Source: Sphingomonadales bacterium Ga0077559 (lineage in GTDB: Bacteria; Pseudomonadota; Alphaproteobacteria; Sphingomonadales; Sphingomonadaceae). From it: DNA of 46,139 nucleotides. Below, piece by piece: positions 5,533-43,162 of this stretch (within the stretch, counting starts at the first letter, position 1; each line of letters starts with the position of its first letter). The DNA lies in contig LNFK01000036.1 of assembly GCA_001464315.1 (NCBI GenBank), forward strand, positions 1 through 46,139, read 5' to 3'. Both the position numbers and the translations under genes were made by a program. A model generated the notes under the pieces. The model was given only the letters and a program-made list of their open reading frames with translations, was not told the DNA's origin and searched no databases.

Positions 5533-7284
5533 ATGGAAGTCAAACCGATCCGCAAGCCCGATGCGACCAAGGTGCGCGCCAATCTTCCAGATGATAGTGC
5601 TGAACGCCACAGGTTGGGGTGGGATGTTGCGCGAAGCTGGCTCGACGGTTTGACAGGTGGTGGACTCAACATTGGCTATGAGGCGGTGGACAGGCACGTC
5701 GTACACGGCCATGGCAACCGTGAAGCCATCCGCTGGATTGGCAAGAACGGCACGGTGCGGAGTTTCAGCTACGCCAATCTCAAGGAAGCAACCGACCGTT
5801 TCGCATCTCTTCTGGAAAAGCTTGGCCACACCAAGGGCGTGCACGTGTTCACTTTATTGGGCCGGACGCCCGAGCTTTACATTACCGCGCTGGGGACATT
5901 GAAGGCAGGTGGCATGTTCTGCCCGCTTTACTCGGCTTTTGGACCCGAACCTGTTCGAGCGCGTATGGAAATCGGTGCCGCCAACGTGCTTGTGACCACC
6001 GCTGCCGACTATGCGAAAAAGGTTCAGCCGTGGCGCGCAGAGATACCCAGCTTGCGCCATGTCATTCTGGTTGATTTACCGCCGCCAGATATTTCCGAAA
6101 CGCTGGATTTCGCCAAAGCCTGCGCTGATGTCAGTGGTGATTTCAAGATCGTTCGTACCAAACCTGACGATATGGCATTGCTGCACTTCACCAGTGGCAC
6201 TACAGGCAAACCCAAAGGCGCAATGCATGTCCACGAAGCTGTTGTCGCGCACAACGCCACCGGGCGATTGGTGCTCGATCTGCAACCGGATGACGTGTTC
6301 TGGTGCACTGCCGACCCGGGTTGGGTTACTGGCACATCCTACGGGATCATAGCCCCGCTCACCAATGGGGTGACGATGATCGTCGATGAGGCGGAGTTCG
6401 ACGCCGAACGCTGGTACGCGACGCTCGCGCGCGAGAAGGTATCGGTCTGGTACACTGCGCCCACCGCGATCCGGTTGCTGATGAAAGCGGGCGATGATCT
6501 GGCGCGCCGTCACGATCTTTCGCGCCTTCGGTTCATGGCAAGTGTCGGTGAGCCGCTGAATGCCGAAGCAGTGATTTGGAGCGCGCGTGTTTTCGGCAAG
6601 CCTTTCCATGACAATTGGTGGCAAACCGAGACCGGCGGGATCATGATTGCCAACACAGCGGCCATGGATGTGAAGCCCGGTTCGATGGGCAAACCGCTTC
6701 CTGGTGTCGAAGCGGCCATCGTCGACACAAGCTGCGACCACATTGTTCCAATAGAAGCGCCCATGAAGGTGGGCCATCTCGCACTGAAGGCGGGCTGGCC
6801 ATCGATGTTTCGCGGCTATCTGCACGAAGATGCACGTTATGCCGCCTGTTTCCGGGATGGCTGGTATTTGACCGGTGACCTCGCGATGCGCGACGAAGAT
6901 GGATATTTCTGGTTTGTCGGGCGCGCTGATGATGTGATCAAGTCGGCGGGGCATCTCATTGGGCCGTTCGAAGTCGAAAGCGCCCTGATGGAACATCCCG
7001 CGGTCGCCGAAGCCGCGGTGATTGGCCTGCCCGACGAGCGCGCGGGCGAAATCGTCAAAGCCTATGTGACGCTGAAACAGGGGCAAGAGCCATCAGAGGC
7101 ATTGCGCAAGGAATTGCTTGGGCACGCCCGCAAGCGACTTGGCGCGGCGATCGCCCCGCGGCAGATCGAAATTCGTACCGATTTGCCGCGGACGCGTTCG
7201 GGCAAGATCATGCGCAGACTGCTCAAGGCGCGCGAACTCGGACTGCCTGAGGGCGATCTTTCGACACTCGAGCAGGCCGCATGA
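5533..7284 (+). CDS. acsA: AMP-forming acyl-CoA (acetate-CoA) ligase
   Basis: A 583-residue adenylate-forming enzyme that activates a short carboxylate with ATP and loads it on CoA. The core motifs are in order: [11 protein letters not shown] (A3, about residue 220), [10 protein letters not shown] (A5, about 362), [23 protein letters not shown] (A7/A8, about 448-470) and TRSGKIMRR around Lys558, the conserved catalytic lysine that is also the usual acetylation site. The tryptophan-containing A5 motif favours acetate or propionate. The length is nearer to the Bacillus AcsA type (about 570) than to the 650-residue enterobacterial Acs. GAGAGG lies seven bases before the ATG. The ATGA at 7281 couples it to E1 alpha, so it is the first gene of a five-gene operon. 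The exact acyl substrate is inference. Confidence 0.88.
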
Positions 7285-8276
7285 CCATGGCCGCCACCGA
7301 AAAGGTTCATCTGGACCGCACCCACAGCCTGCATCTCTTGAAACAGATGATCCGGATCCGACGGTTCGAGGAAAAATGCGGCGAACTTTACCAACAGGAG
7401 AAGATTCGCGGATTTCTTCACCTCTATGTCGGAGAAGAAGCGGTCGCTGTCGGCATCATGCAAGCCCTTCAACCCGACGACGCTGTCGTTGCCACTTACC
7501 GCGAGCATGGTCACGCCCTCATGCACGGCGTTTCTGCCAATACGATCATGGCCGAAATGTATGGCAAGCAGGAAGGATGCAGCCGCGGCCGTGGCGGCTC
7601 CATGCACTTGTTCGATGCCGCGACGCGCTTCTACGGGGGCAATGCCATAGTCGGCGGCGGCTTGCCGATTGCGCTTGGCCTTGCCCTGGCAGACAAGATG
7701 CAGGGAAAGTCACGGGTCACCGTCTGCTTCTTTGGCGAAGGCGCGGTTGCAGAGGGAGAGTTCCACGAGACGCTCAATCTGGCGGCCCTGTGGCAGGTGC
7801 CGCTGTTGTTCGTGTGCGAGAATAATCTCTACGCCATGGGTACAGCGCTTAAGCTCTCCGAATCCCAGACCGACATTCATTTGAAGGCCGCGAGTTACAA
7901 TCTGCCTTCCGAAGCCGTCGACGGCATGAATGTCGTCGACGTGGAAGGTGCTGCCCGCCACGCAACAGCAGCAATACATTCAGGCGGCGGGCCCTATTTC
8001 CTCGAATGCCGTACATACCGATTTCGCGCCCATTCAATGTATGATCCGCAGCTGTATCGCGAAAAAGCCGAAGTCGAAGCCTGGACGGAGAAATGTCCAA
8101 TCAAACGCTTCGATGATTGGGCTCTTGCCGCAGGGCTGATCCACGACACGGACATTGTGAACCTGGAAGCAGAGGTTGCAGTCGAGGTCGAGGCGGCCAT
8201 TTCCTTTGCGGAAGCAGGCACATTGGAACCCGTCGAGCAATTGCTCCAGCATGTCGGTGCGGAGCTTCGGATATGA
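7281..8276 (+). CDS. pdhA: Pyruvate dehydrogenase-type E1 component, alpha subunit
   Basis: A 331-residue thiamine-diphosphate-dependent 2-oxoacid dehydrogenase alpha subunit. It decarboxylates the 2-oxoacid and passes the acyl group to lipoyl-E2. The ThDP motif runs from [12 protein letters not shown] (about residue 153) to CENN (about 181), with [15 protein letters not shown] before it; [14 protein letters not shown] near 260 is the phosphorylation-loop region typical of E1 alpha. The length and the separate beta gene place it in the heterotetrameric PDH/acetoin dehydrogenase group. The ATG overlaps the ligase stop (ATGA), and its own stop overlaps the E1 beta start (ATGA), implying translational coupling. 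Pyruvate is the likely substrate; acetoin or a branched 2-oxoacid cannot be excluded. Confidence 0.92.
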
Positions 8277-9247
8277 CCGAGATCAGCTACCGTGATGCCA
8301 TGGGCGCTGCCATCCGTGAGGCGATGATCGCGGATCCGCGCGTGTTCCTGATGGGTGAAGATGTCGGCCATTATGGCGGCTGCTATGCCGTCAGCAAGGG
8401 CTTGCTTGAAGAGTTCGGCCCCGAACGCATCCGCGATACACCGCTGTCGGAATCGGCTTTTACGGGTGCAGGGATCGGCGCGGCGTTGGGCGGTATGCGA
8501 CCGATTGTGGAGCTGATGACCTGCAATTTCTCGCTGCTCGCGCTCGACCAGATCATGAACAACGCTGCCACGCTTCGCCACATGTCGGGCGGGCAATTCA
8601 ACGTACCGCTCGTCATCCGCATGGCCACCGGCGGCGGGCGGCAATTGGCGGCCCAACATTCGCACAGTCTGGAAGGTTGGTACGCCCATATTCCGGGAAT
8701 TCGGGTCCTCGCACCCGCGACGGTTGAAGATGCAAGGGGCATGTTGGGAAAAGCACTCGACGACCCAGATCCGGTCCTGATCTTTGAAAATGCGCTGCTG
8801 TATAACCAGACCGCGGAGATCGTTGAGCCCGTGAGCGTGGATATCGATCATGCCGCGGTTCGCCGTGAAGCTAATCATGTCAGCCTTATCACTTATGGCG
8901 GTTCGCTGGGCAAAACAATGGAAGCCGCAGGCAAGCTCGAAAAAGACGGCATTGAAGCAGAGGTGATCGACCTGCGGGTTTTGCGACCCCTAGATGAAGC
9001 GACCATCCTCAAATCGGTTGCCAAGACAAGGCGCGCGGTGGTGATTGACGAGGGCTGGCGTTCGGGCGGGATTGCGGGCGAGATTATCGCGCGCATTGTT
9101 GAAGGGGCTTTTTGGGAGCTTGATGCCCCGCCTGCGCGGGTCTGCAGTGCGGAAGTACCCATCCCCTATGCCCGGCATCTCGAGCTTGCGGCCTTACCCA
9201 GCATTGAGCGGATCGTGAGTGCCGCACGCGCCGTCATGGGGCGCTAA
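8273..9247 (+). CDS. pdhB: Pyruvate dehydrogenase-type E1 component, beta subunit
   Basis: A 324-residue transketolase-like subunit that completes the E1 active site. The start at 8273 is chosen because [14 protein letters not shown] is the normal family N-terminus and its ATG overlaps the E1 alpha stop. The frame is open further upstream, but that part is antisense-like filler inside pdhA. Family landmarks are [16 protein letters not shown] (about residue 24), [14 protein letters not shown] (about 48) and EGWRSGG near 260 in the C-terminal transketolase domain. No E3 (dihydrolipoamide dehydrogenase) gene is nearby, so the complex presumably shares a housekeeping E3. Five bases separate it from E2. 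Confidence 0.92.
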
Positions 9248-9252
9248 GCAAC

Positions 9253-10404
9253 ATGGGCAGTTTCAAAATGCCCTCACTTGGCTCCGACATGGAGGACGGA
9301 ACACTTGTCGAGTGGCTCAAAAAGCCCGGGGATCAAGTCCATCGCGGCGATATCGTCGCCGTTGTCGAAACCGAAAAGGGCGCGATTGAAATCGAGATTT
9401 TCGAGGATGGCCAGCTTGACAAGCTGATCGTCGCGCCGGGGACCAAGGTGCCGGTGGGAACGGTTCTGGCGACGCTAGTCGGCGGTGAAACCCCAACTAT
9501 TGAAGAGCCAAAACCGGAAATCGCTCCCCAACTTGCGGCCGAACCGGTGCGGCCAATGCCGACCGAGATCATGCCAACCGCGGGCACGCGTCAACGCGTT
9601 TCTCCTGCCGCACGAAGGCTCGCGGAACAGGGCAATATTGATCTTGCCACGGTTCGCGGTTCTGGCCCGGACGGCGCAATTGTCGTGGCCGACCTGGCAA
9701 TCGAAGCCAAGCCAGTGAGTACGAAAACCCTGCCGGATCTTGAGCCGATGCGGCGCGCAATCGCCGCTGCGATGAGCCGGTCAAAGCGCGAAATCCCGCA
9801 TTATTATCTGTCGCACAGCATCGATGTTGAAAAGGCGCAAAACTGGATTAATCGCTACAACATGGAGCGCGAATCGGCAGACAGGCTGCTGTTCGCCGTG
9901 CTGCTGATCAAGGCGTCTGCGCTCGCACTGCGCGACTATCCGGAATTCAATGGTTTCCATGAAGAAGGAAATTTTGCGCCAAGTGCAGCCATCCATGTCG
10001 GCCTCGCCATCGCCATACGCGGCGGGGGCTTGGCGGCCCCTGCCATCCATGACAGCGACAAGCTTGGCTTGCCGGCGCTGATGGCAAAGATGCGTGACCT
10101 GATAGGTCGCGTACGGCGCGGCGGCTTTCGGTCGTCAGAGATCAGCGATCCGACGGTGACCATTTCCAGCCTTGGCGAACGGGGCGTCGAAGCCTTGCTT
10201 CCCGTCATCTATCCACCACAGGTTGCGATACTGGGCTTTGGCACGCCGTTGCCGAAGCCATGGTCGGTCAATGGGCGCATCGAGACGAGGTCGATCATGA
10301 CGGCCTCGCTCGCCGCCGACCACCGTGTGAGCGACGGCCATCGCGGCGCACTCTTGCTCAAGCGGATTGATGAACTCCTCAACACACCGGAGGCTTTGCA
10401 ATGA
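9253..10404 (+). CDS. pdhC: Dihydrolipoamide acetyltransferase (E2)
   Basis: A 383-residue E2 core protein. Residues 1-76 are one lipoyl domain with the lipoyl lysine at K42 in ETEKGAIEI. A Pro/Ala/Glu-rich linker follows, then a peripheral subunit-binding domain at about 115-150 (RVSPAARRLAEQ ... VRGSGPDGAIV). The catalytic acyltransferase domain runs from about 160 to the end with the active-site motif DHRVSDG (canonically DHRVVDG). It transfers the acyl group from E1 to CoA. It is shorter than housekeeping alphaproteobacterial E2 (about 420-440) and has a compact linker. Its ATGA junction at 10401 couples it to the acyl carrier protein. Confidence 0.92.
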   Translation: MGSFKMPSLGSDMEDGTLVEWLKKPGDQVHRGDIVAVVETEKGAIEIEIFEDGQLDKLIVAPGTKVPVGTVLATLVGGETPTIEEPKPEIAPQLAAEPVRPMPTEIMPTAGTRQRVSPAARRLAEQGNIDLATVRGSGPDGAIVVADLAIEAKPVSTKTLPDLEPMRRAIAAAMSRSKREIPHYYLSHSIDVEKAQNWINRYNMERESADRLLFAVLLIKASALALRDYPEFNGFHEEGNFAPSAAIHVGLAIAIRGGGLAAPAIHDSDKLGLPALMAKMRDLIGRVRRGGFRSSEISDPTVTISSLGERGVEALLPVIYPPQVAILGFGTPLPKPWSVNGRIETRSIMTASLAADHRVSDGHRGALLLKRIDELLNTPEALQ

Positions 10405-10661
10405 CACAAGCTGAACTGCGCGCGATCATTGTCGAAGAAATTAGCAATATCGCGCCCGAAACCGACGCGGCTGTGATCGGCGATGATGAGGATCTGCGGG
10501 AGGCGCTTGATCTTGATTCCATGGACATCTTCAACGTCGTCGTTGCGTTGAGCCAGCGGCTCCACATCAATATCCCCGATGCGGATGTTCCAAAGTTGGT
10601 GACACTCGGTGGCGGTGCGGCCTATCTTGAGGGCCGTCTCGCCTCCCAACTCCCGCGTTGA
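10401..10661 (+). CDS. Acyl carrier protein
   Basis: An 86-residue acidic four-helix carrier protein. The phosphopantetheine attachment serine is S40 in LDLDSMD, with the usual hydrophobic residue after Ser at the start of helix II and a conserved acidic residue after it. The ATG overlaps the E2 stop (ATGA), so it is translated with the PDH-type complex rather than with fatty-acid genes. It is not the housekeeping AcpP, whose motif is DSLD within a longer conserved context. It might carry an acyl group made by the ligase or by the complex, or serve lipoyl (octanoyl) loading; both ideas are inference. The family assignment is sound. Confidence 0.88.
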   Translation: MTQAELRAIIVEEISNIAPETDAAVIGDDEDLREALDLDSMDIFNVVVALSQRLHINIPDADVPKLVTLGGGAAYLEGRLASQLPR

Positions 10662-10662
10662 A

Positions 10663-10790
10663 CTACGGGCGGATAGCGACCTTCAACACGCCGTCGCGCT
10701 GGTTGGCGAACAGCTCATAAGCGCTCTCAATGTCATCAAGCCTGAAGTGGTGCGTCACCAAAGCCGATGTATCGACCCGTCCAAGGCTAT
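10663..10790 (-). pseudogene. Alcohol dehydrogenase remnant (C-terminus only)
   Basis: Reading the minus strand from about 10785 to the stop at 10663-10665 gives a peptide with GRVDTSALVTHH, LDDIESAYELFANQRDG and VLKVAIRP before the stop. This is nearly identical to the last 40 residues of the intact alcohol dehydrogenase at 19532-20608. Nothing upstream continues the gene: the match ends where plus-strand PEP synthase sequence begins. It is therefore the truncated tail of a second copy, left at a rearrangement junction. Its stop lies only two bases past the acyl carrier protein stop. Confidence 0.85.
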
Positions 10791-10968
10791 CCGCAAGGCG
10801 CATGCGGCTGGAATCAAAATCGGTATCTGCGGGCAGGCGCCCAGCAATTATGGGGACTTTGCGGAATTTCTGGTCCGCGAGGGGATAGATTCCATTTCGC
10901 TCAATCCGGACAGTTTCGTAAAGACCTCTTCGGTGATTGCTGGTGCCGAAGCAACAGCATCAGGCTAA
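10786..10968 (+). pseudogene. PEP synthase remnant (C-terminus only)
   Basis: The plus frame gives AIRKAHAAGIKIGICGQAPS, then EFLVREGIDSISLNPDS and a stop at 10968. This is the C-terminal end of phosphoenolpyruvate synthase, including the active-site cysteine region (GICGQAPS). It differs from the intact ppsA at 32552-34951, which has GRHCGICGQAPSDRPGFAKW there, so it derives from a different, more canonical copy and is not a recent duplicate. No start or N-terminal part is present. It abuts the oppositely oriented dehydrogenase tail. Confidence 0.85.
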
Positions 10969-11252
10969 AACCAGCAGCAGCCCGCCAGGGGCCACATAGC
11001 CAAGGCAGATGGGCAGCATGGATTTGAGGCGCTCACCCTGGTGAAGAGTTCGGGCAGGGATGTAGCTGTTGCGAGCAGGATGAGACCGATCCAGGAGCGC
11101 GACAGGCCTGTCAATTCGGCGATCCTGTCACCATTCCGGACTAGGGCAGGGACGGCCATGCCGATCAGCGCCGCTTCAAACGCGACCAAGAGGCGATCGA
11201 TCTGTTGCTGTTCGTCCAGTTCGATAAACCACCTTATCTCGGTGTTCGTCAA
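10965..11252 (-). pseudogene. Cation (Na+/Ca2+-type) antiporter remnant
   Basis: The minus-strand frame contains ALVRNGDRIAELTGLSRSW followed by IGLILLATATSLPELFT, the alpha-repeat signature of sodium/calcium-type exchangers. Only about 45 residues of antiporter sequence survive. After the SLPELFT motif, where a full protein would continue for more than 200 residues, the frame runs into an unrelated Cys/Pro-rich tail. The adjacent frame reads a hydrophobic ending (KSMLPICLGYVAPGG then LLLVLA and a stop) that may be the displaced C-terminus. An internal deletion with a frameshift explains this best. Confidence 0.7.
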
Positions 11253-11333
11253 ACTGGCAGAAGGCCAGAACGAACAAAACGGTAGCGTGACGAAGTTTGT
11301 CTTCGCGTAAATGACGAAATCACTTGCCTCCGT

Positions 11334-12227
11334 CTAATCAAGCCATCCCTGACCACGGATTGCATTGGCCAACACTCCTGACAGTGGGATCGAGGCAATC
11401 TGGCTTGAAGTTGAGTCCGTTGCCCTCAGGCGGGAGATACCCGTGTTGGCCAGCCTCTCCAGATCGGTGCCCGAAGCGAGCGAATGCGTTGCTACTGCCT
11501 CCACCCTGGTCGCACCCACTTCGTGCAGCAGGCTTGCGCAGGCCATCAGGGTCGTGCCGCTGGAGATGAGATCATCGACAAGTATGACAGGTCTTCCGCT
11601 CGCTCTGTCGATGTCCGGCACCGTAAGCATGACCTCGCGATCCCCTTTGCGGATTTTCTCTCCTACCAGAACATCAAGACCGAGCGGACGGGCGATGCTC
11701 TCTACCCAGGGACGGGATTCGCTATCAGGCCCCACCATGATGGTGCGAGGATCGAGATCAATGGCGATGACTTGCACGAGGGCAGGCGCTGCCGATACCG
11801 CCAAAGCGGGTATCCCGCTCATGATTGCATCCAGGCTCGCGATACGATGGAGATGCGGATCCACGGTGAGGAGGCCATCAAACCAGACAGCCAGGAGCTT
11901 GCCGATCACCCGCTGGCTTACGGCCTCGCCTTCATGGAACGGCACGTCTTGGCGCATGTAGGCAAGATAGGGAGCAACCAGGATCACCTTTTCTGCGCCG
12001 CAATCGCGCAAGGCCGAAGCGGCCAGAAGCACTTCGACCAGCTTGGCATTGGGATCGTCCAGGGAGCGAAAGAGCAGAGCCGTTTCCGCCGCCCCATGGA
12101 CACGGACGAGGCTTTCGCCATCGGGGAAGCGGTGCACATCGATCTGATTGACCGGGATTCCGCATTCGCTCGCCAGCCCGGCTGCTTGCCGGGCACCGTC
12201 GGTAAAGGTGAACAGCGCTGTTGTCAC
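11334..12227 (-). CDS. prs: Ribose-phosphate pyrophosphokinase (PRPP synthetase)
   Basis: A 297-residue enzyme of the PRPP synthetase family, which makes PRPP from ribose 5-phosphate and ATP. Visible motifs are HRFPDGES (about residue 27), the Mg/ATP segment TVDPHLHR (about 123), and the PRPP loop VILVDDLISSGTT (about 215), all in the expected order. The start is GTG at 12227 because it overlaps the stop of the upstream phosphorylase (GTGA) and gives the normal N-terminus; longer in-frame extensions lie inside the phosphorylase gene. It is somewhat shorter than housekeeping Prs (about 310). The pairing suggests it works on ribose phosphate released by the phosphorylase. Confidence 0.88.
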   Translation of the reverse strand: MTTALFTFTDGARQAAGLASECGIPVNQIDVHRFPDGESLVRVHGAAETALLFRSLDDPNAKLVEVLLAASALRDCGAEKVILVAPYLAYMRQDVPFHEGEAVSQRVIGKLLAVWFDGLLTVDPHLHRIASLDAIMSGIPALAVSAAPALVQVIAIDLDPRTIMVGPDSESRPWVESIARPLGLDVLVGEKIRKGDREVMLTVPDIDRASGRPVILVDDLISSGTTLMACASLLHEVGATRVEAVATHSLASGTDLERLANTGISRLRATDSTSSQIASIPLSGVLANAIRGQGWLD

Positions 12228-13708
12228 GGAGTCACCGTATAGCCGGACGCCGCCGTAGCCAGTTCGCGGGCAAAAATGAGCCCTGTCTCCGAATGCGCGT
12301 GGATTCGGTAAAGGGCCTCGCCTCTGCGGACCTCCTTGCCGACCTTGTGCAGCAGGTCGATACCGGCACCCTTGTCCATCGGCGCCCCCGCCAGACGGGC
12401 AATGCGCGCGATCAGGTGGCAATCGATTGCTGTGATCGTACCATCGCTCGGAGCGCAGATTTCATGGTGATGACGCCCAGGCTCGAGCACTTCTTTGCGT
12501 CGTCCCTGGGCGTCGATCAACCGCTCCATGGCAGCCAACGCCTCGCCCGAACCCAGCAGTTCCATCGCCCGCGCATAGCCGCGCCCACCCTCGAGCGCCG
12601 GATCGAATTCGAGCACCCGTCCGGCGAGCATTAGCGCCCGCTCGCGCAGGTCAGCAGGCGCATCGTCCTCATTGCGCAGCACGGCCATCACGTCACGCGC
12701 TTCCAGAACCGGACCGACACCCCGGCCAATCGGCTGCGAACCGTCGGTGAAGACCACATCGAGAACAAGGCCAAGCTTGTGCCCGACATATTCGAAGAGC
12801 TTGCGAAGCCGGATGGCTTCGCGTTGCGAACGTACCTTGGCGCTGGGTCCGATCGGAATATCGACCAACAGGTGGGTGGATCCCGCCGCCAGCTTCTTCG
12901 ACATGATCGACGCCACCATCTGTTCGAATGTGTCGATACGCAGCGGGCGCTCGACAGTGATCAGTATGTCGTCGGCAGGGGACAAGTTCATGCGCCCGCC
13001 CCAGGCGAGCACCGCGTGTTCCTGCTCGACTACAGCAACAAGCTTCTCCTCAATGAGGTCCACCGCAGCGAGGACTTCCATCGTATCCGCAGTTCCCGAT
13101 GGTGAAGTGATCGCGCGTGAGGACGTCTTCGGCATCGTCAGGCCGTGCGCGGCAATGATCGGCACCACGATCATCGATGTGCGATTGCCGGGTATTCCTC
13201 CGATGCAGTGCTTGTCGACGACGATCTCCGCGGGCCAGCGCATGCGTCGGCCTGCGTCAGCCATGGCGCGGGTGAGGGCCAGGGTTTCCTGGGTCGTCAT
13301 GAAACCGGCGCAAGCCACCAGAAAGGCGCCGATCTCCATTGGCGAATAGCGGTAGGCGGATATGTCCTGGATGATCTCGTGGATGTCGGCGTCATCGAGC
13401 GTGTCGCCGTCGATCTTGCGGCGAACGTGTTCCAAGCTGTGCGGGACTGGCGCCTGGCGGAAGCTGACCTCCGCGCCCTCTGGCAGGCCAAGCCGGCGAA
13501 ACGCCTGTTCGCCAAGTCCTATCATATCCGGCTCGAGCAGGGCCGCATCGTCGATGATTGCCAGCGTTGCGAGGATCGAGACGGTCCCGTTGCCGATCTC
13601 GATCTTGCGCAGCGCCTGAAATTGTTCGGGCGAGTAACCGTTCCCACCGCGCGAAAGGAAGGCCGTGTTTTCGGGGTGAGTATCGATGGCGATCCGCTTT
13701 ATCTTCAT
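12224..13708 (-). CDS. Thymidine phosphorylase family / AMP phosphorylase-like enzyme
   Basis: A 494-residue member of the archaeal-type pyrimidine/AMP phosphorylase family, which cleaves a nucleoside or nucleotide with phosphate to give a base and a (bis)phosphorylated ribose. The start MKIKRIAIDTH fits the family, and GAGGGAAAAGA precedes the ATG. The N-terminal 80 residues are the extra domain characteristic of the archaeal AMP phosphorylase group and absent from E. coli DeoA. The phosphate-binding signature lies at about residue 215-235 (KTSSRAITSPSGTADTMEV), with DKHCIGGIPGNRTS before it. It is coupled to PRPP synthetase by a GTGA overlap. Whether it acts on AMP or thymidine cannot be decided here. 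Confidence 0.85.
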   Translation of the reverse strand: MKIKRIAIDTHPENTAFLSRGGNGYSPEQFQALRKIEIGNGTVSILATLAIIDDAALLEPDMIGLGEQAFRRLGLPEGAEVSFRQAPVPHSLEHVRRKIDGDTLDDADIHEIIQDISAYRYSPMEIGAFLVACAGFMTTQETLALTRAMADAGRRMRWPAEIVVDKHCIGGIPGNRTSMIVVPIIAAHGLTMPKTSSRAITSPSGTADTMEVLAAVDLIEEKLVAVVEQEHAVLAWGGRMNLSPADDILITVERPLRIDTFEQMVASIMSKKLAAGSTHLLVDIPIGPSAKVRSQREAIRLRKLFEYVGHKLGLVLDVVFTDGSQPIGRGVGPVLEARDVMAVLRNEDDAPADLRERALMLAGRVLEFDPALEGGRGYARAMELLGSGEALAAMERLIDAQGRRKEVLEPGRHHHEICAPSDGTITAIDCHLIARIARLAGAPMDKGAGIDLLHKVGKEVRRGEALYRIHAHSETGLIFARELATAASGYTVTP

Positions 13709-14340
13709 TCTTTTCCCTCGCGCGCTTACCGAAGCACCGTTATAGACGGATTGATCGACCTGCGTCGACCACAGTGTTTCTTGGACCCGAACTGCACCTT
13801 GTGGGGCGATTTCCATTCGCATATCGCGCAAGACGGCAAGCTCCGCGAGAAGTCGATTTCAGGATGAACAGCGGCAAAGGCAACAAACCTGATCAAACGC
13901 TCCCGGTCGCTGGCCGCAGCAAATCTAAACCACTCGAATTCGATGTCGTCCCGCCCGGTCGCATTGAGCGGAGCGGGCGTCGGGGTCTGACACCAAGAGG
14001 TCTATGAATGCAGATATCTGACTTGATCTGCAACGATAACGGTGATCGAAATTGGATTGTTTTCCGCGCTATGGTGCCTTCTTCAATCGATTTCGGCAGC
14101 CTTGCTTAATCGGTTTTTTCGCACAACGCTGTAAGGCGGTAACGCATGACATTGCTCATCTGGCGACTCGACAAGTTTGTTGCTCCAGCGGTTGATGAAC
14201 GAATGACCGCTAACGCCCTTGCGACGTCAGAAGGAGACTGTCGGGAGTGTCCCACATCCTCGCCCGACGTTCAAACAGGCATCGGTACCGAAATTTCCCA
14301 ATGATTTGAGTGCCCATCTTTATCAGTTCGGGTGCACTAA
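13709..14340. other. Intergenic stretch, no supportable gene
   Basis: About 630 bases between the divergent-looking phosphorylase start and the lipoprotein terminator. Open frames exist, but they are Arg/Ser-rich with no motif. A GAATGACCGCT phrase at 14201-14211 resembles those at 1421, 2571 and 2646 and may be a decayed intergenic repeat. The phosphorylase promoter should lie between 13710 and about 13850; I cannot assign it. Confidence 0.35.
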
Positions 14341-19531: not shown

Positions 19532-20608
19532 ATGCCGATCAAGATGCGCGCCGCGATATTTATCGAGCCGGGACGGATTGTGTTGGGTGAAAAGCCGGTT
19601 CCAAAGCCAGGTCCGCTTGATGCTTTGATCAGGATCACCATGACGACCATCTGCGGGACTGACGTACATATCCTCAAGGGCGAATACCCCGTGCAGTCAG
19701 GGTTGACAATCGGGCATGAACCCGTCGGCGTAATCGAAAAGCTGGGGTCGGCGGTGGAGGGTTTCAAAGTTGGTCAGCGCGTCATTGCAGGAGCAATCAC
19801 CCCTTCAGGAACCTCAAACGCATCGCTCAGCGGCTTTCATTCGCAGTGCGGCGGTGCTCAAGGACATGGCTGGGCTGCGATTGGTGGTTGGCGTTTCGGC
19901 AATACCATTGATGGGGCCCAAGCCGACTATCTGCTTGTGCCGGATGCCATGGCGAACCTGGCCATAATTCCTGACGGGTTAACCGATGAACAGGTACTGA
20001 TGTGTCCTGACATCATGTCAACCGGCATCGGTGGCGCAGAGTCAGGTAAGATCAGAATAGGCGACACCGTCGCAATTTTTGCGCAGGGACCGATAGGATT
20101 ATGCGCAACGGCGGGTGCCAGACTGATGGGCGCAACCACAATCATCGCCGTTGACCGCGTTGCTGAACGGCTGGAGATGGCGAAGCGCCTTGGCGCGGAT
20201 TATGTCGTGGATTACTCCAAGTGCGATCCCGTGGCCGAGATCATGAAATATACCGGCGGGCGGGGCGTGGATGTCGCGATAGAGGCTCTTGGCAAGTCTT
20301 TGACTTTTGAATCTGCACTTCGGGTTCTGCGTCCCGGCGGGACATTGTCGTCGCTTGGTGTATATTCCGAGGACTTGAAGATTCCGCTCGATGCTTTCGC
20401 CGCAGGCCTGGGTGACCATCACATTGTCACAACCCTGTGCCCCGGCGGAAAAGAACGGATGCGCCGCCTGATGGATGTCGTGGCATCGGGCCGCGTCGAC
20501 ACATCGGCGCTGGTGACGCATCATTTTGGGCTGGACGATATTGAAAGCGCATATGAGCTATTTGCTAACCAGAGGGATGGTGTGCTGAAAGTCGCGATCC
20601 GCCCCTGA
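19532..20608 (+). CDS. NAD(P)-dependent secondary-type alcohol dehydrogenase
   Basis: A 358-residue medium-chain zinc dehydrogenase. Catalytic-zinc motifs are TICGTDVHILKG (Cys about 41) and GHEPVG (about 64), plus Asp in MCPDIMSTG (about 154). The four-cysteine structural-zinc loop is absent; in its place is AITPSGTSNAS ... HSQCGG, as in the isopropanol (Clostridium/Thermoanaerobacter) group. The Rossmann motif is QGPIGL, and AVDRV ends beta-2, its Asp suggesting NAD preference. RBS AAAAGGAAAAG. A second, truncated copy of its C-terminus is found at 10663-10790. It is likely transcribed alone. Substrate unknown; it probably acts on short secondary alcohols, or on aldehydes in reverse. Confidence 0.88.
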   Translation: MPIKMRAAIFIEPGRIVLGEKPVPKPGPLDALIRITMTTICGTDVHILKGEYPVQSGLTIGHEPVGVIEKLGSAVEGFKVGQRVIAGAITPSGTSNASLSGFHSQCGGAQGHGWAAIGGWRFGNTIDGAQADYLLVPDAMANLAIIPDGLTDEQVLMCPDIMSTGIGGAESGKIRIGDTVAIFAQGPIGLCATAGARLMGATTIIAVDRVAERLEMAKRLGADYVVDYSKCDPVAEIMKYTGGRGVDVAIEALGKSLTFESALRVLRPGGTLSSLGVYSEDLKIPLDAFAAGLGDHHIVTTLCPGGKERMRRLMDVVASGRVDTSALVTHHFGLDDIESAYELFANQRDGVLKVAIRP

Positions 20609-38754: not shown

Positions 38755-39567
38755 ATGAAATCCCTATTGCTCCACGTCCAAGACGATCCCGGCATGGAAG
38801 CCCGCCTGCAGGCAGCACTTTCCATAGCCCGCGCGACTAGCGGCCATATCAATTGTTTGCATGTGACGCCGATCAGCCTCTACATTGCATCCGACGGTAT
38901 CACCGGCGCCTACATGATGCCAAATTTTGCTAAGGCGCTCGACGAGATGGAGGCAAAGATGCGCGCGCGCATCGAGGCGCACCTTAAGAACGAAGATGTG
39001 TCTTGGTACTATGAACATGTCGATGGCCACGCTGCGCAGGAACTTGTTAGCCGGTCTTCGCTCGCCGACCTGATTGTCATGGGCCGCTACCACCACCGAG
39101 AAACCCGCTACACACCAATCACACTGATTGGCGATGTCCTGCAAAGTACACGCGCGCCGCTTCTGGTGCAGCCGCAGGAGCTGAACAGTTTTGATGTCTT
39201 TGGTCCGGCGGTGGTCGGATGGAATGGCAGTTTTGAAGCGGCGAATGCCCTGCGCGCCGCCCTACCATTGCTGAAAATGGCGTCGGCGGTTCATATCGTG
39301 ACTGTGGAAGAGCCGAAGGAACATATGCTGCCGTCGCTAGCCGCGTCGACCTATTTGTCGCGGCATGGCATCGCATCCGAGCTGCATGCGCGTCCGGTTT
39401 CGGACACTCCGGTTGAAGAGGCCATTAAGTCGACAGCACAAGTGATGGGCGCAGGCTATATCGTCATGGGCGGCTATGGCCACAGCCGCGCGCGGGAATT
39501 CCTGTTTGGCGGGGTGACCCGCACACTTTTGAAGGAGTGCCCAATTCCGCTGATCATGGGACGCTAA
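38755..39567 (+). CDS. Tandem-domain universal stress protein
   Basis: A 270-residue protein of two UspA-like domains (about 1-145 and 150-270). The first ends with ASDLIVMG-like SSLADLIVMGRYHHR. The second has YIVMGGYGHSRAREFLFGGVTRTLL, in which G-x2-G-x9-G is the ATP-binding pattern, followed by CPIPLIMG, the usual C-terminus. AAGGAG before ATG. It is the first gene of a probable four-gene operon with the DUF4010, MBL/beta-CASP and BON genes, which is typical of stress islands. Confidence 0.9.
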   Translation: MKSLLLHVQDDPGMEARLQAALSIARATSGHINCLHVTPISLYIASDGITGAYMMPNFAKALDEMEAKMRARIEAHLKNEDVSWYYEHVDGHAAQELVSRSSLADLIVMGRYHHRETRYTPITLIGDVLQSTRAPLLVQPQELNSFDVFGPAVVGWNGSFEAANALRAALPLLKMASAVHIVTVEEPKEHMLPSLAASTYLSRHGIASELHARPVSDTPVEEAIKSTAQVMGAGYIVMGGYGHSRAREFLFGGVTRTLLKECPIPLIMGR

Positions 39568-39573
39568 AGCGCC

Positions 39574-40839
39574 GTGACGATTAGCGATCTCGCCTATCGT
39601 GATTTGGCGGTTGCGCTCGCTGCCGGGCTTCTTGTCGGGATCGAACGCGGTTGGCGACAGCGTGATGTTACAACTGGCGGTCGCGTTGCCGGGGTCAGGA
39701 CGTTTGCGCTGCTTGGCGGACTGGGTGGAATGGTCGGTCTGTTGGCGCGGGAATTTGGCATCGTCTTACCGTCAATATTGCTGGGCGCTGCGGTCATCAT
39801 GCTGATCATCGGTTACGCGCGCTCGATGGCCGGGCCGACGGATGTCAGCATCACCAGCCTGATTGCGGCGCTGCTGACACTCTGTTTTGGTATGCTTGCA
39901 ACCTCGGGAAATCCGGCACTGGCTATGGCCGCCGCTGCCATTGTCACGATGATATTGGCCTTGCGTAGCGCCTTGCACGGCCTGATCCAGAAAGTGGGCG
40001 AAGCGGACGTGATCGCGCTGGCGCGCTTTGCTATCATTGCAGGCGCAATCTGGCCGTTTCTGCCCAATCAGCGCTATGGACCCTATGACGCGTGGAACCC
40101 GCAGCAGCTCTGGCTGGTGGTCGTATTCGTCACGGGGCTATCCTTTGCCAGCTACGTCGCGAGCCGGATTTTCGGCGCGGAGAAAGGCATATTGGCGACA
40201 GCGGCCATTGGCGGTGCCTATTCTTCCACAGCGGTCACGGCATTGCTGTCGCACCGGTTGCGTAGTGACGAAGTTGGACATGGCACATTGTCAGCGGGAA
40301 TTGCGCTGGCAACATCGATCATGTTTGTCCGGGTGCTGCTGCTGACCGCGATCATTGCCGACTTTGCCTTCATGCCCGTTTTGCGACTGGCGGGTCCTGC
40401 GGTGCTGGTCGGGGTTGTCGCCGGATTGTTCCTGCTTCGCGACCGCGCACCGGTTGCGAAGCAGGAGCCGGCCCGATTGGAAAATCCGATAGCGATCGTT
40501 CCCGCACTCGGCTTTCTGGTGCTGGTCGCGATCATGGCAGTCGCCGCCCGCTGGTCGGAAGCCAGATTTGGCGGCGGCGGCGCACTGGCGCTGATTACTG
40601 CAATCGGTGTGTTCGATGTCGATGCGGCGATCATCACGCTCGGCGGGCTTGCCCCCGATAGTGTTGACCGCAACCTCGCCGGGTTGGCGCTCAGCGGCGC
40701 GGTTCTCGCCAATATGCTGGTCAAGATCGGCGTCGTCATCATTTACGCCGGTTTCAAACGCGGGCGGAGCGCGATCATCGCCTTGTCGGCAGGAGCAGCA
40801 ACTTTGGCTGGCGCATGTGCGCTGGCATTATTTTCTTAG
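39574..40839 (+). CDS. MgtC/SapB-like, DUF4010 membrane protein
   Basis: A 421-residue integral membrane protein with about 11-12 hydrophobic segments. The N-terminal 130 residues are MgtC-like (AAGLLVGIERGWRQRD, GGRVAGVRTFALLGGLGG), and the remainder is the DUF4010 domain (IGGAYSSTAVTALLSHR at about 210). The start is GTG at 39574, six bases after the universal stress protein stop. Family members are thought to act in magnesium or low-pH stress, but no function is established for this subgroup. Confidence 0.87.
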   Translation: MTISDLAYRDLAVALAAGLLVGIERGWRQRDVTTGGRVAGVRTFALLGGLGGMVGLLAREFGIVLPSILLGAAVIMLIIGYARSMAGPTDVSITSLIAALLTLCFGMLATSGNPALAMAAAAIVTMILALRSALHGLIQKVGEADVIALARFAIIAGAIWPFLPNQRYGPYDAWNPQQLWLVVVFVTGLSFASYVASRIFGAEKGILATAAIGGAYSSTAVTALLSHRLRSDEVGHGTLSAGIALATSIMFVRVLLLTAIIADFAFMPVLRLAGPAVLVGVVAGLFLLRDRAPVAKQEPARLENPIAIVPALGFLVLVAIMAVAARWSEARFGGGGALALITAIGVFDVDAAIITLGGLAPDSVDRNLAGLALSGAVLANMLVKIGVVIIYAGFKRGRSAIIALSAGAATLAGACALALFS

Positions 40840-40849
40840 ATAGGGGCAA

Positions 40850-42424
40850 ATGGAAGTGGAACCAGTCGAGATCATATTCCACGGCGCAGCCGGAACTGTG
40901 ACCGGATCATGCTTTGAAATCAGAGGTAACGGCAAATCAATCCTTGTCGACTGCGGCATGTTTCAGGGCACGCGGTCGCTGGAGGCGCTAAATCATGAAA
41001 AGCTGCCGTTTGACGTGCAAACCATCGACGCCGTTATCCTGACCCACGCGCATCTCGATCATAGCGGGCGGCTGCCTTATCTGGTCGCCAGCGGTTGCCG
41101 CGCACCGATCTGGATGACTGCGCCAACTGCAGATATTATCGAGCCGCTTCTGCTCGATTCCGCCAAGCTTCAGACCGCCGATGCGACACGGCGCAACCGC
41201 AGACCCGACCGCATGGCGCTGCCGCCTTTCATTCCGCTCTACACCGGGGATGATGTCACCTCATGCATCGGACAGATACGCGAAACGCATTATTGCGCAT
41301 GGAATGATTTGGGCGATGGCGACGGATTCCGGCTGTGGGATGCGCGCCACATCGTTGGGTCAGCATCGGCCGAGCTAAAGCTGGCTGGACAACGCATCCT
41401 CTTTTCGGGCGACATTGGCGGTGGCTCGGCGATTCACTGCACCGACGCCGAACTTGGCGGATATGATCATATCATTTGCGAGGCGACCTATGGCGATCGA
41501 GCGCGGGAGCCGGTGCTGATCAGCGAACGTCGCGAACAGCTGGCCGTGTATGTTGAGCAGACGCTCAGCAAGAATGGCAATTTGCTGATCCCGGCATTTG
41601 CCGTCGAACGGACGCAGATCGTGCTCGAAGATCTGGTCGCCTTGTTCGAAAGCAAGAGGCTCAGGCCATATAACGTCTTCGTCGATTCGCCGCTGGCCGA
41701 GCGCGTGACCCGCGCGACCCAGCGCCATCGGCATGCCGGTTATGATCTGCTGTCGGTCGCCAACATCCGTTTCACACATGATGTCGAGGAATCGAAGCAG
41801 ATCAACAGCATGACGGGCGTGATCATTATCGCAGGGTCGGGCATGTGCCAGGGCGGACGTATCCGCCATCATCTGCTGCACAATCTGCCGCACCCGCGTG
41901 CCCGCGTTCTGCTTGTCGGCTATCAGGTGGCAGGGACGCTTGGCTCGGTGCTTCGCGACGGCGCGCATCATGTCCGCATTTCGGGTCATGATGTGCCAGT
42001 CAGGGCCGACGTCAAGACGCTCGATTCCTATTCGACCCATGCGGATCGTCGTGCGCTGCTCGACTGGATCAAGATGCATGGTCCGGTTTCGGGTTCGGTG
42101 TTTCTCGTCCACGGCGAAGAGCATTCGCTGTCGGTGCTGGCCGAAGACATACGCAATGCCGGCATTGCGAAAGGTGTCGTTGTTCCGATGCTCGGCGAGA
42201 CGTGGGCGGCAACGGCGAAGCATGCATCTAAACGCATTGGCGAGCCACGCAGCGATTTGCACGCGCGCATAAAGCCGCGCGACTGGACCGCGAGCCTTGC
42301 TGCGCTTGAATCCGGCCTTGCCGACCGCTTGCGCGCGCTGCCATCCGACGCGGCACGAGAACGCGCATTGGCGTCGCTCACCCGCACGCTCGAACGCGCC
42401 GAGGGCATCAGGGAAACTACTTAG
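40850..42424 (+). CDS. MBL-fold, beta-CASP RNase-type protein
   Basis: A 524-residue metallo-beta-lactamase RNA-processing-type enzyme. Motif II HAHLDHSG is at about residue 66 and SGDIGGG at about 186; the beta-CASP region has ECATYGD-like ICEATYGD, then PAFAVERTQ and IAGSGMCQGGRIRHHL (about 325). The C-terminal RMMBL part has VDSYSTHADRR-like LDSYSTHADRRALLDW (about 392-407) and FLVHGEEHSL (about 420). It is a 'CPSF-like/YSH1-type exonuclease' by family. About 50 C-terminal residues are Arg/Ala-rich. Eleven bases after the DUF4010 gene. RNA target unknown. Confidence 0.88.
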   Translation: MEVEPVEIIFHGAAGTVTGSCFEIRGNGKSILVDCGMFQGTRSLEALNHEKLPFDVQTIDAVILTHAHLDHSGRLPYLVASGCRAPIWMTAPTADIIEPLLLDSAKLQTADATRRNRRPDRMALPPFIPLYTGDDVTSCIGQIRETHYCAWNDLGDGDGFRLWDARHIVGSASAELKLAGQRILFSGDIGGGSAIHCTDAELGGYDHIICEATYGDRAREPVLISERREQLAVYVEQTLSKNGNLLIPAFAVERTQIVLEDLVALFESKRLRPYNVFVDSPLAERVTRATQRHRHAGYDLLSVANIRFTHDVEESKQINSMTGVIIIAGSGMCQGGRIRHHLLHNLPHPRARVLLVGYQVAGTLGSVLRDGAHHVRISGHDVPVRADVKTLDSYSTHADRRALLDWIKMHGPVSGSVFLVHGEEHSLSVLAEDIRNAGIAKGVVVPMLGETWAATAKHASKRIGEPRSDLHARIKPRDWTASLAALESGLADRLRALPSDAARERALASLTRTLERAEGIRETT

Positions 42425-42511
42425 GTGGCATTCCCGATTTGCGTGGCATGGCTGCTTCATCAATATCGCGCGCAGGGGACACTGGTATCTTGCAGATTGA
42501 GGAGAATTCCG

Positions 42512-43162
42512 ATGAAAACCGACAGCCAATTGCAAAAGGACGTCATGGCTGAACTCGAGTGGGAACCGCGCGTCGATCATGCCAATATCGGCGTCACTGC
42601 GAAGGACGGCATTGTTACATTATCAGGCTTTGTCAGCAGCTATGCGTCCAAGCTCGCCGCCGAAAAGGCCACACGCAGGGTCAAGGGTGTGCGCGGGCTA
42701 GCCGAGGAAATTGAAGTGCGTTTCCCGAGCGATGCGAAGACCGCCGACCCCGAAATTGCCAAGCGCATTGCTGACATGTTCGACTGGAGCGTGACAATTC
42801 CCAAAGGGAAGATCAACGTTAAGGTAGAGCATGGCTGGGTAACGCTGAGCGGCGATGTGGGCTATCATTACCACCGCCAAGCCGCGCGTGATCTGGCATC
42901 ACGCATCACCGGTGTCAAAGGCGTGACCAATCTAATTGAGATCAAGAAAACACCGTCTCCGCTCGATATTCGCCAACGGATTATGGACGCGTTCAAGCGG
43001 TCTGCGGACTTGGATGCCAGTACCATCACCGTGGTCGCTGACGGCGATACCGTCAAACTCTCCGGCAAGGTGCATTCGGGCTATGAACGCCGGATTGCGG
43101 AGCGCGCTGCATGGGCAGCCCCCGGCGTCAACCGAGTTGAAGACAATATCATGGTGATTTGA
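42512..43162 (+). CDS. Triple BON-domain protein
   Basis: A 216-residue protein of three BON domains at about 4-70, 78-147 and 148-215. Each has the pattern VTV/VTLSGxV followed by an Ala-rich helix and a GV...V end: GIVTLSGFVSSYASKLAAE, GWVTLSGDVGYHYHRQAA and DTVKLSGKVHSGYERRIAE. There is no signal peptide, so it is probably cytoplasmic, unlike OsmY. GAGGAG precedes ATG at 42512; the earlier in-frame extension is not accepted. It closes the universal stress protein operon and is followed by a strong terminator. Confidence 0.9.
   Translation: MKTDSQLQKDVMAELEWEPRVDHANIGVTAKDGIVTLSGFVSSYASKLAAEKATRRVKGVRGLAEEIEVRFPSDAKTADPEIAKRIADMFDWSVTIPKGKINVKVEHGWVTLSGDVGYHYHRQAARDLASRITGVKGVTNLIEIKKTPSPLDIRQRIMDAFKRSADLDASTITVVADGDTVKLSGKVHSGYERRIAERAAWAAPGVNRVEDNIMVI

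Follow-up and report, generated by a model that had tools for sequence, protein, structure and literature searches.

An operon in a Sphingomonadales genome that joins an acetate ligase and pyruvate dehydrogenase-type E1 and E2 to an acyl carrier protein of their own

Textbooks present the 2-oxo acid dehydrogenase complexes as machines whose product is acyl-coenzyme A (acyl-CoA), and an operon of Sphingomonadales bacterium Ga0077559 raises the question of what an acyl carrier protein (ACP) might be doing beside such a complex. The operon lies in a window of 46,139 nucleotides (the whole stretch of DNA that was analysed: contig LNFK01000036.1 of assembly GCA_001464315.1, positions 1 to 46,139 of the forward strand), in which five genes on the + strand at 5533-10661 encode an AMP-forming acetate--CoA ligase (AcsA), the E1 alpha and E1 beta subunits and the E2 acyltransferase of a pyruvate dehydrogenase (PDH)-type complex, and the ACP. 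The reading that we tentatively prefer, short of calling it probable, is an accessory PDH-type complex with its own holo-ACP as acetyl acceptor and carrier, and with AcsA linking this pool to acetate. We know of no 2-oxo acid dehydrogenase complex for which protein-bound pantetheine had been recognized as the partner of E2. The features of the operon are as follows.

5533..7284, + strand: acsA, AMP-forming acetate--CoA ligase of the PRK04319 type, 583 amino acids (NF003313)
7281..8276, + strand: E1 alpha (pdhA-type), 331 amino acids (TIGR03182, PF00676)
8273..9247, + strand: E1 beta, 324 amino acids (NF006667, PF02779 and PF02780)
9253..10404, + strand: E2 acyltransferase, 383 amino acids, with lipoyl, E3-binding and catalytic domains (PF00364, PF02817 and PF00198, each over its cut-off)
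9376..9378, + strand: codon of E2 K42, the predicted lipoyl lysine (VETEKGAI), invariant in 22 of 22 aligned E2s
10018..10020, + strand: codon of E2 R256, invariant Arg in the gatekeeper turn (RGGGL), the extra residue being placed by alignment
10387..10404, + strand: shortened C-terminus of E2 (PEALQ-stop), from the comparison of tail lengths
10401..10661, + strand: dedicated ACP, 86 amino acids (PF00550; helical ACP fold in the model)
10518..10520, + strand: codon of ACP S40 (DSMD), the predicted phosphopantetheine site at the start of modelled helix 40-54, kept in 66 of 66 sequences

A preliminary description of this DNA had joined the five genes by three ATGA overlaps and a 5-base gap, and every coordinate was confirmed: the overlaps are at 7281-7284, 8273-8276 and 10401-10404, and the gap separates the end of E1 beta (9247) from the start of E2 (9253). 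Residues K42 of E2 and S40 of the ACP also stand where that description had placed them. Its "acyl-CoA ligase" gene is present, and the family score narrows the product to an acetate--CoA ligase (878.8 bits against NF003313, cut-off 729). E1 alpha scores 440 bits against TIGR03182, the pyruvate (acetyl-transferring) family with a cut-off of 394, and E1 beta scores 395 bits against NF006667 (cut-off 321), again an acetyl-transferring PDH family. An assignment to acetoin dehydrogenase was considered and rejected, since NF011457 matches only residues 5-150 of E2, with 73 bits against a cut-off of 307, and the catalytic domain is 2-oxoacid_dh. The operon was also correctly described as lacking a gene for E3, the dihydrolipoamide dehydrogenase. 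The host's lpd lies on another contig, directly behind an E2 that we take to be of the sucB type from its TISNGG motif, and a blastp search of 84 operon loci found no close lpd homologue, only two 31% matches to longer proteins. Sharing of E3 among complexes is common, and the missing gene therefore does not exclude membership in the PDH complexes.

Is the ACP gene there by accident? The preliminary description had proposed a comparison of gene order across alphaproteobacterial genomes, and that comparison does not uphold an accidental linkage. An E2 query (E <= 1e-60) of 385 such genomes found 17 copies in 16 genomes, the host's own included, and an ACP gene adjoins all 17. When the ACP was used as query over GTDB contigs, 62 loci were found, with E2 directly upstream of the ACP in 59 and all five genes present in 47. 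The remaining 15 loci comprise 12 that are cut by a contig end, including one that starts at the ACP (L023), another cut locus (L072), and two without the rest of the operon (L063 and L071); these last two have no upstream E2, and the L071 match is at chance level (E 0.01). An ACP profile run over 398 genomes of the phylum gave 15 matches in 14 genomes, of which 14 adjoin E2 and the fifteenth (L133) lies behind a C-terminal E2 remnant. The spacing from E2 to ACP, measured with the start codon nearest to the aligned start, ranges from -20 to +30 bases in all 65 measurable loci and is exactly -4 in 35 of them. Chance is rejected by the 17/17 adjacency and by this near-fixed spacing, and the linkage of the ACP to the operon is not accidental.

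The gene order is common to alpha-, beta- and gammaproteobacteria and to two records titled Acidimicrobiales or Acidimicrobiaceae. Its presence is patchy: the ACP is matched at E <= 0.001 in six of 61 near genomes, strongly only in the host and one other, the matches in the other four being weak (E 3e-4 to 1e-3). The ACP also matches 18 PLSDB plasmid records, and the whole operon was present in each of the five plasmid regions examined. In 5 of 55 loci (L058, L060, L074, L075 and L077), a single protein comprises E1 alpha and E1 beta; this fusion has 665 residues in three Rhodobacterales plasmids, and the open frames of L058 and L060 are somewhat longer. Two individual loci differ in other ways. 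In L072, on a contig titled Myxococcales, the ligase gene lies downstream of the ACP, and in genome G607 a decayed second copy (L133, 1267-1740) consists of an operon-E2 C-terminal end followed by an ACP frame.

The operon ACP has the features that define this kind of protein: a PP-binding domain, a helical fold, and a Ser that opens helix II and never varies. It scores 30.7 bits against PF00550 (cut-off 20.8) with no other match in Pfam, and its predicted model adopts a helical ACP fold with a mean pLDDT of 88 and with S40 starting helix 40-54. Residues A18, P19, D39, S40, D42, P59 and D62 are invariant throughout the alignment, which holds 66 of the 69 sequences; the short fragments L063, L071 and L072 were left out for insufficient coverage. 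The protein matched 13 NCBIfam ACP models and reached the cut-off of none. Against the housekeeping AcpP models PRK00982 and TIGR00517 it reaches 22-34 bits, with cut-offs of 66-106, which does not make it an AcpP, and the host has another, higher-scoring PF00550 protein elsewhere (51.6 bits). Judged by sequence, the operon ACP is a subfamily of its own.

The E2 proteins are likewise set apart. The AlphaFold2 model has a mean pLDDT of 84 and resembles solved E2 cores, the lipoyl lysine is kept in all 22 aligned sequences, and the DHR..DG site is present in 70 of 72 operon E2s, a set that includes near-copies and duplicates, e.g. L022 and L163, which are identical in the tree set. For comparison, the host and nine carriers together gave 32 PF00198 matches outside the operon, of which 27 served as ordinary E2s; among the other five matches, three divergent E2s were compared separately and two short frames were left out. 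A tree places the operon E2s on one side of a single branch against the 27 ordinary ones with support of 100/100, in a topology that has long branches (oth_L162, oth_L156 and pdh_L154) and a bootstrap that is not fully settled. A hidden Markov model built from operon E2s gave at least 486 bits to six further operon E2s and at most 297 to the 27 others.

One difference lies close to where the acceptor would bind. All 54 operon E2s aligned here have one additional residue in the gatekeeper turn, ahead of G-G-L, and an Arg there that never varies; at the extra position the alignment shows a gap in every one of the 27 ordinary and three divergent E2s (0 of 30 with the extra Arg). The motif R.GG[LMVI] is found in 71 of the 72 operon E2s, the sole miss being a 70-residue fragment; it also occurs in two of the 27 ordinary E2s, but outside the turn. 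The turn of the operon E2 was aligned with human E2, and in PMC9681731 the gatekeeper leucine of the betaE-betaF turn is described as sitting beside the active site. In the sets compared, the longer turn with its Arg is the change so far found only together with the ACP.

The other difference is at the C-terminus. Counted from the Gly of DHR..DG, the tail has 21 residues in 67 of the 72 operon E2s, 22 in three, 23 in one and 27 in one, as against 23-29 residues in all 27 ordinary E2s by the same sequence-based measure. According to PMC9681731, the C-terminal helix H7 is a hydrophobic knob that joins trimers (five plus one residues in E2p, six plus two in E2o), and an actinobacterial E2p with a displaced H7 is unable to form a cage. 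Given this role of H7, the shortened end predicts free trimers, and the operon E2 probably works in this form and not as a 24- or 60-mer. This would make it similar to the trimeric actinobacterial E2p (AceF), in which, according to PMC10415282 and PMC10581250, a three-residue insertion makes the C-terminal helix unfit to join trimers; the operon E2 differs in that its end is about two residues shorter instead. CoA enters the E2 channel from inside the cube (PMC8421416), so that a protein acceptor would reach the channel more easily on a trimer without a cage.

The ligase keeps the S-G-K catalytic-lysine motif and WWQ.ETGG in all 51 aligned relatives. No match to acetate kinase was found in the host, by the same search that was positive in 9 of 14 genomes as a control, and two other host proteins score over the NF001208 (acetate--CoA ligase) cut-off. 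With no acetate kinase match and two other acetate ligases, a third and different ligase looks specialised. The host encodes one AcpS and one LipB/LplA-family protein, both on other contigs, and blastp with the host proteins (E 1e-4) found no lipB-type or acpS homologue in the 84 operon loci, lipA not being part of that search. Taken together with the acetate kinase and ligase findings, this makes lipoylation and ordinary acetate use both poor explanations of the operon. An AMP-forming Acs that forms ATP from acetyl-CoA, AMP and pyrophosphate (PPi) has a precedent in PMC4992975. That enzyme, Acs1 of Syntrophus aciditrophicus, resembles the operon ligase in being an AMP-forming acetate ligase whose host has no acetate kinase. 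It differs in that the abstract of PMC4992975 names no ACP or PDH partner, and the operon ligase may run in either direction.

How might the parts work together? In the preferred reading, E1 would decarboxylate a 2-oxo acid, most likely pyruvate, and acetylate the lipoyl arm of E2; E2, probably as free trimers, would then acetylate the ACP on its phosphopantetheine; and the host's own E3 would reoxidise the lipoyl arm. AcsA would stand between free acetate and acetyl-ACP (or acetyl-CoA), either consuming ATP as it loads acetate or, in reverse when energy is short, using AMP and PPi to yield acetate and ATP. The preliminary description had suggested a dedicated acyl relay from ligase or complex to ACP. 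This idea survives as the best reading, with some support from the changed acceptor gate of E2, but the transfer to the ACP stays conjectural and a CoA route is possible. Acetyl transfer to the ACP, the trimeric state of E2, the direction of AcsA and a use under limitation of oxygen or energy are all elements that we infer. If the scheme is right, acetyl groups may go to a dedicated protein as well as to free CoA, which opens the acylation range of E2 and the purpose of the core cage to test, as well as acetyl handling at low energy in bacteria without acetate kinase. A more radical version, which we regard as quite improbable, is a CoA-independent energy module from pyruvate to acetate, in which altered-gate E2 trimers would hand acetyl to the ACP and AcsA would cleave acetyl-ACP with AMP and PPi; at times of failing oxygen or energy supply, cells without acetate kinase would then make ATP directly from AMP.

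Several observations weigh against the preferred reading or parts of it. E2 retains an ordinary fold and catalytic motif, and CoA may still be its acceptor. A putative CoA-contact Arg of the ligase, which we take to be the equivalent of R584, the CoA contact in Salmonella Acs, is kept in 51 of 51 relatives; loss of the CoA site in AcsA is thus unsupported, and the retained Arg argues against a full replacement of CoA by the ACP. In two Leisingera plasmid E2s, Gly replaces the Asp of DHR..DG, and the two operon E2s with tails of 23 and 27 residues both have hydrophilic ends. Nor is a short end specific, since the divergent E2s without an adjoining ACP gene have tails of 19, 19 and 25 residues. 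With two of these three also short-ended, the short end is no proof of an ACP partner, and its use as a mark of ACP partnership by itself is weakened. With respect to oxygen, no more than a moderate share of loci (25 of 62) have stress-island neighbours. FNR-like boxes show no excess over chance (7 against 4.3 expected, and 14 of 100 shuffles gave at least as many), and control by FNR or CRP was dropped as a candidate for that reason.

The rival explanations, in falling order, are a structural ACP, a supplier of acetyl-CoA, another acyl substrate and octanoate supply. The ACP could be a structural or regulatory subunit that binds E2 or AcsA, as AcpM or the mitochondrial ACP does elsewhere, and that carries no acetyl during turnover. 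The strict co-occurrence and near-fixed spacing with E2 would suit such a role, a fold search with the ACP model finds ACPs from solved structures in which they are subunits of complex I, Nfs1-ISD11, EmbA-EmbB and MmpL5, and an E2 without the usual core-forming end might need another organiser. The region of Ser40 is nonetheless among the most conserved of the ACP, which fits use as an arm; structural ACPs usually retain the Ser as well. We consider this explanation unlikely, and we think it similarly improbable that an ordinary accessory PDH and acetate ligase feed the acetyl-CoA pool while the co-transcribed ACP, with no contact to the complex, pulls acetyl into fatty acid or polyhydroxybutyrate synthesis. 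E2 and the ligase do retain ordinary catalytic motifs, and a PhaC-type gene cluster (one member checked by Pfam) flanks eight loci, mostly in betaproteobacterial records. A physical partnership is favoured instead by the ACP linkage of all 17 E2s, the ACP scores below the NCBIfam cut-offs and the clade-specific turn, and there was no fatty-acid synthase enzyme among nine flank proteins scanned with Pfam, a sample that leaves most flank clusters unscanned.

The complex might also act on another 2-oxo acid, with the ACP holding the starter unit of some specialised product. Some loci do have, near the operon, an ANL protein that includes PP-binding and acyltransferase domains, but E1 alpha scores over the cut-off of the pyruvate family and the ligase over that of the acetate family, with its WWQ.ETGG motif universal among the aligned relatives, and the nine scanned flank proteins include no ketosynthase; we find this version very doubtful. 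Least probable of all, and unlikely, is the proposal of the preliminary description that the ACP carries octanoate for on-site lipoylation of E2. The ACP and E2 genes overlap, and octanoyl-ACP is the substrate of LipB in E. coli. The proposal finds no support in the location of the host's LipB/LplA-family and AcpS proteins or in the 84 loci searched for their homologues, and other E2s are lipoylated without an ACP of their own.

Set beside known systems, the operon is apparently a variant of the 2-oxo acid dehydrogenase complexes, found in no publication searched. It is like the PDH complex in its E1 families and in the domain architecture, catalytic motif and lipoyl lysine of E2; it is unlike that complex in having its own ACP and acetate ligase and no E3 gene, and in an E2 with the longer Arg turn, the shortened C-terminus and a clade apart from the carriers' own E2s. 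A dedicated ACP subunit and an AMP-forming acetate:ACP ligase also share an operon in citrate lyase and malonate decarboxylase, systems with a special prosthetic group. The present operon shares with them an ACP and an AMP-forming acetate ligase in one operon, but the enzymes differ; its ACP, which matches only PF00550 in Pfam, does not classify as a CitD/MdcC-type protein, prosthetic-group genes being outside that search. The wider window also recalls the low-oxygen-activated (lxa) locus of Burkholderia cenocepacia in having universal stress and BON-domain proteins (PMC6127331), in contrast to which the main text of PMC6127331 does not mention pyruvate dehydrogenase, dihydrolipoamide, acetyl-CoA synthetase or acyl carrier. 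The available portions of papers on Bradyrhizobium PhaR, B. cenocepacia and D. shibae FnrL do not describe the operon. A full-text literature search found no E2 with an ACP of its own; subscription papers lay largely outside its scope, and an earlier description is possible.

The genomic setting bears on the possible link to oxygen. Neighbours in the window include universal stress, BON, erythromycin-esterase, phosphoribosyltransferase, RNase-type metallo-beta-lactamase and phosphoenolpyruvate (PEP) synthase genes. Stress-island neighbours accompany 4 of 16 alphaproteobacterial operon loci as against 0 of 20 random stretches of carrier genomes, a count that is biased in that the marker genes were picked from this window. 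The link between the operon and low oxygen is suggestive only. Within the window, genes for a universal stress protein, an MgtC/DUF4010 protein, a beta-CASP metallo-beta-lactamase and a triple-BON protein stand in a row at 38755-43162. At 11334-13831, a gene resembling phosphoribosyl pyrophosphate (PRPP) synthetase overlaps one resembling a nucleoside/AMP phosphorylase (AMP phosphorylase is the name that we presume for it), and the same pair lies upstream of the operon in L032, L050 and L053. Counted with acsA and ppsA, this pair gives a set of several enzymes that may interconvert ATP and AMP.

Just downstream of the ACP, at 10640-11320, are truncated gene pieces: the end of a Zn-alcohol dehydrogenase gene on the - strand, with 87% identity to a copy at 19532-20608; a C-terminal part of PEP synthase, 72% identical to its counterpart in L067, a locus with a ppsA-type gene behind the ACP; and a fragment of a sodium:calcium antiporter (44-51%). 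From these pieces, the island around the operon seems to have been rearranged. Three carriers also have a further E1 beta-E2 pair, from another clade (L164 71-2193, L165 and L166), about 28% identical to the window E2, with DHRAVTG in place of DHR..DG and a very short end in two; the L164 pair lies near the operon. Finally, a protein of about 940 residues with PP-binding, AMP-binding and acyltransferase domains is encoded near the operon at L035 10006-12849 and L076 7046-9865, and the cluster of ANL proteins to which it belongs is present in eight loci.

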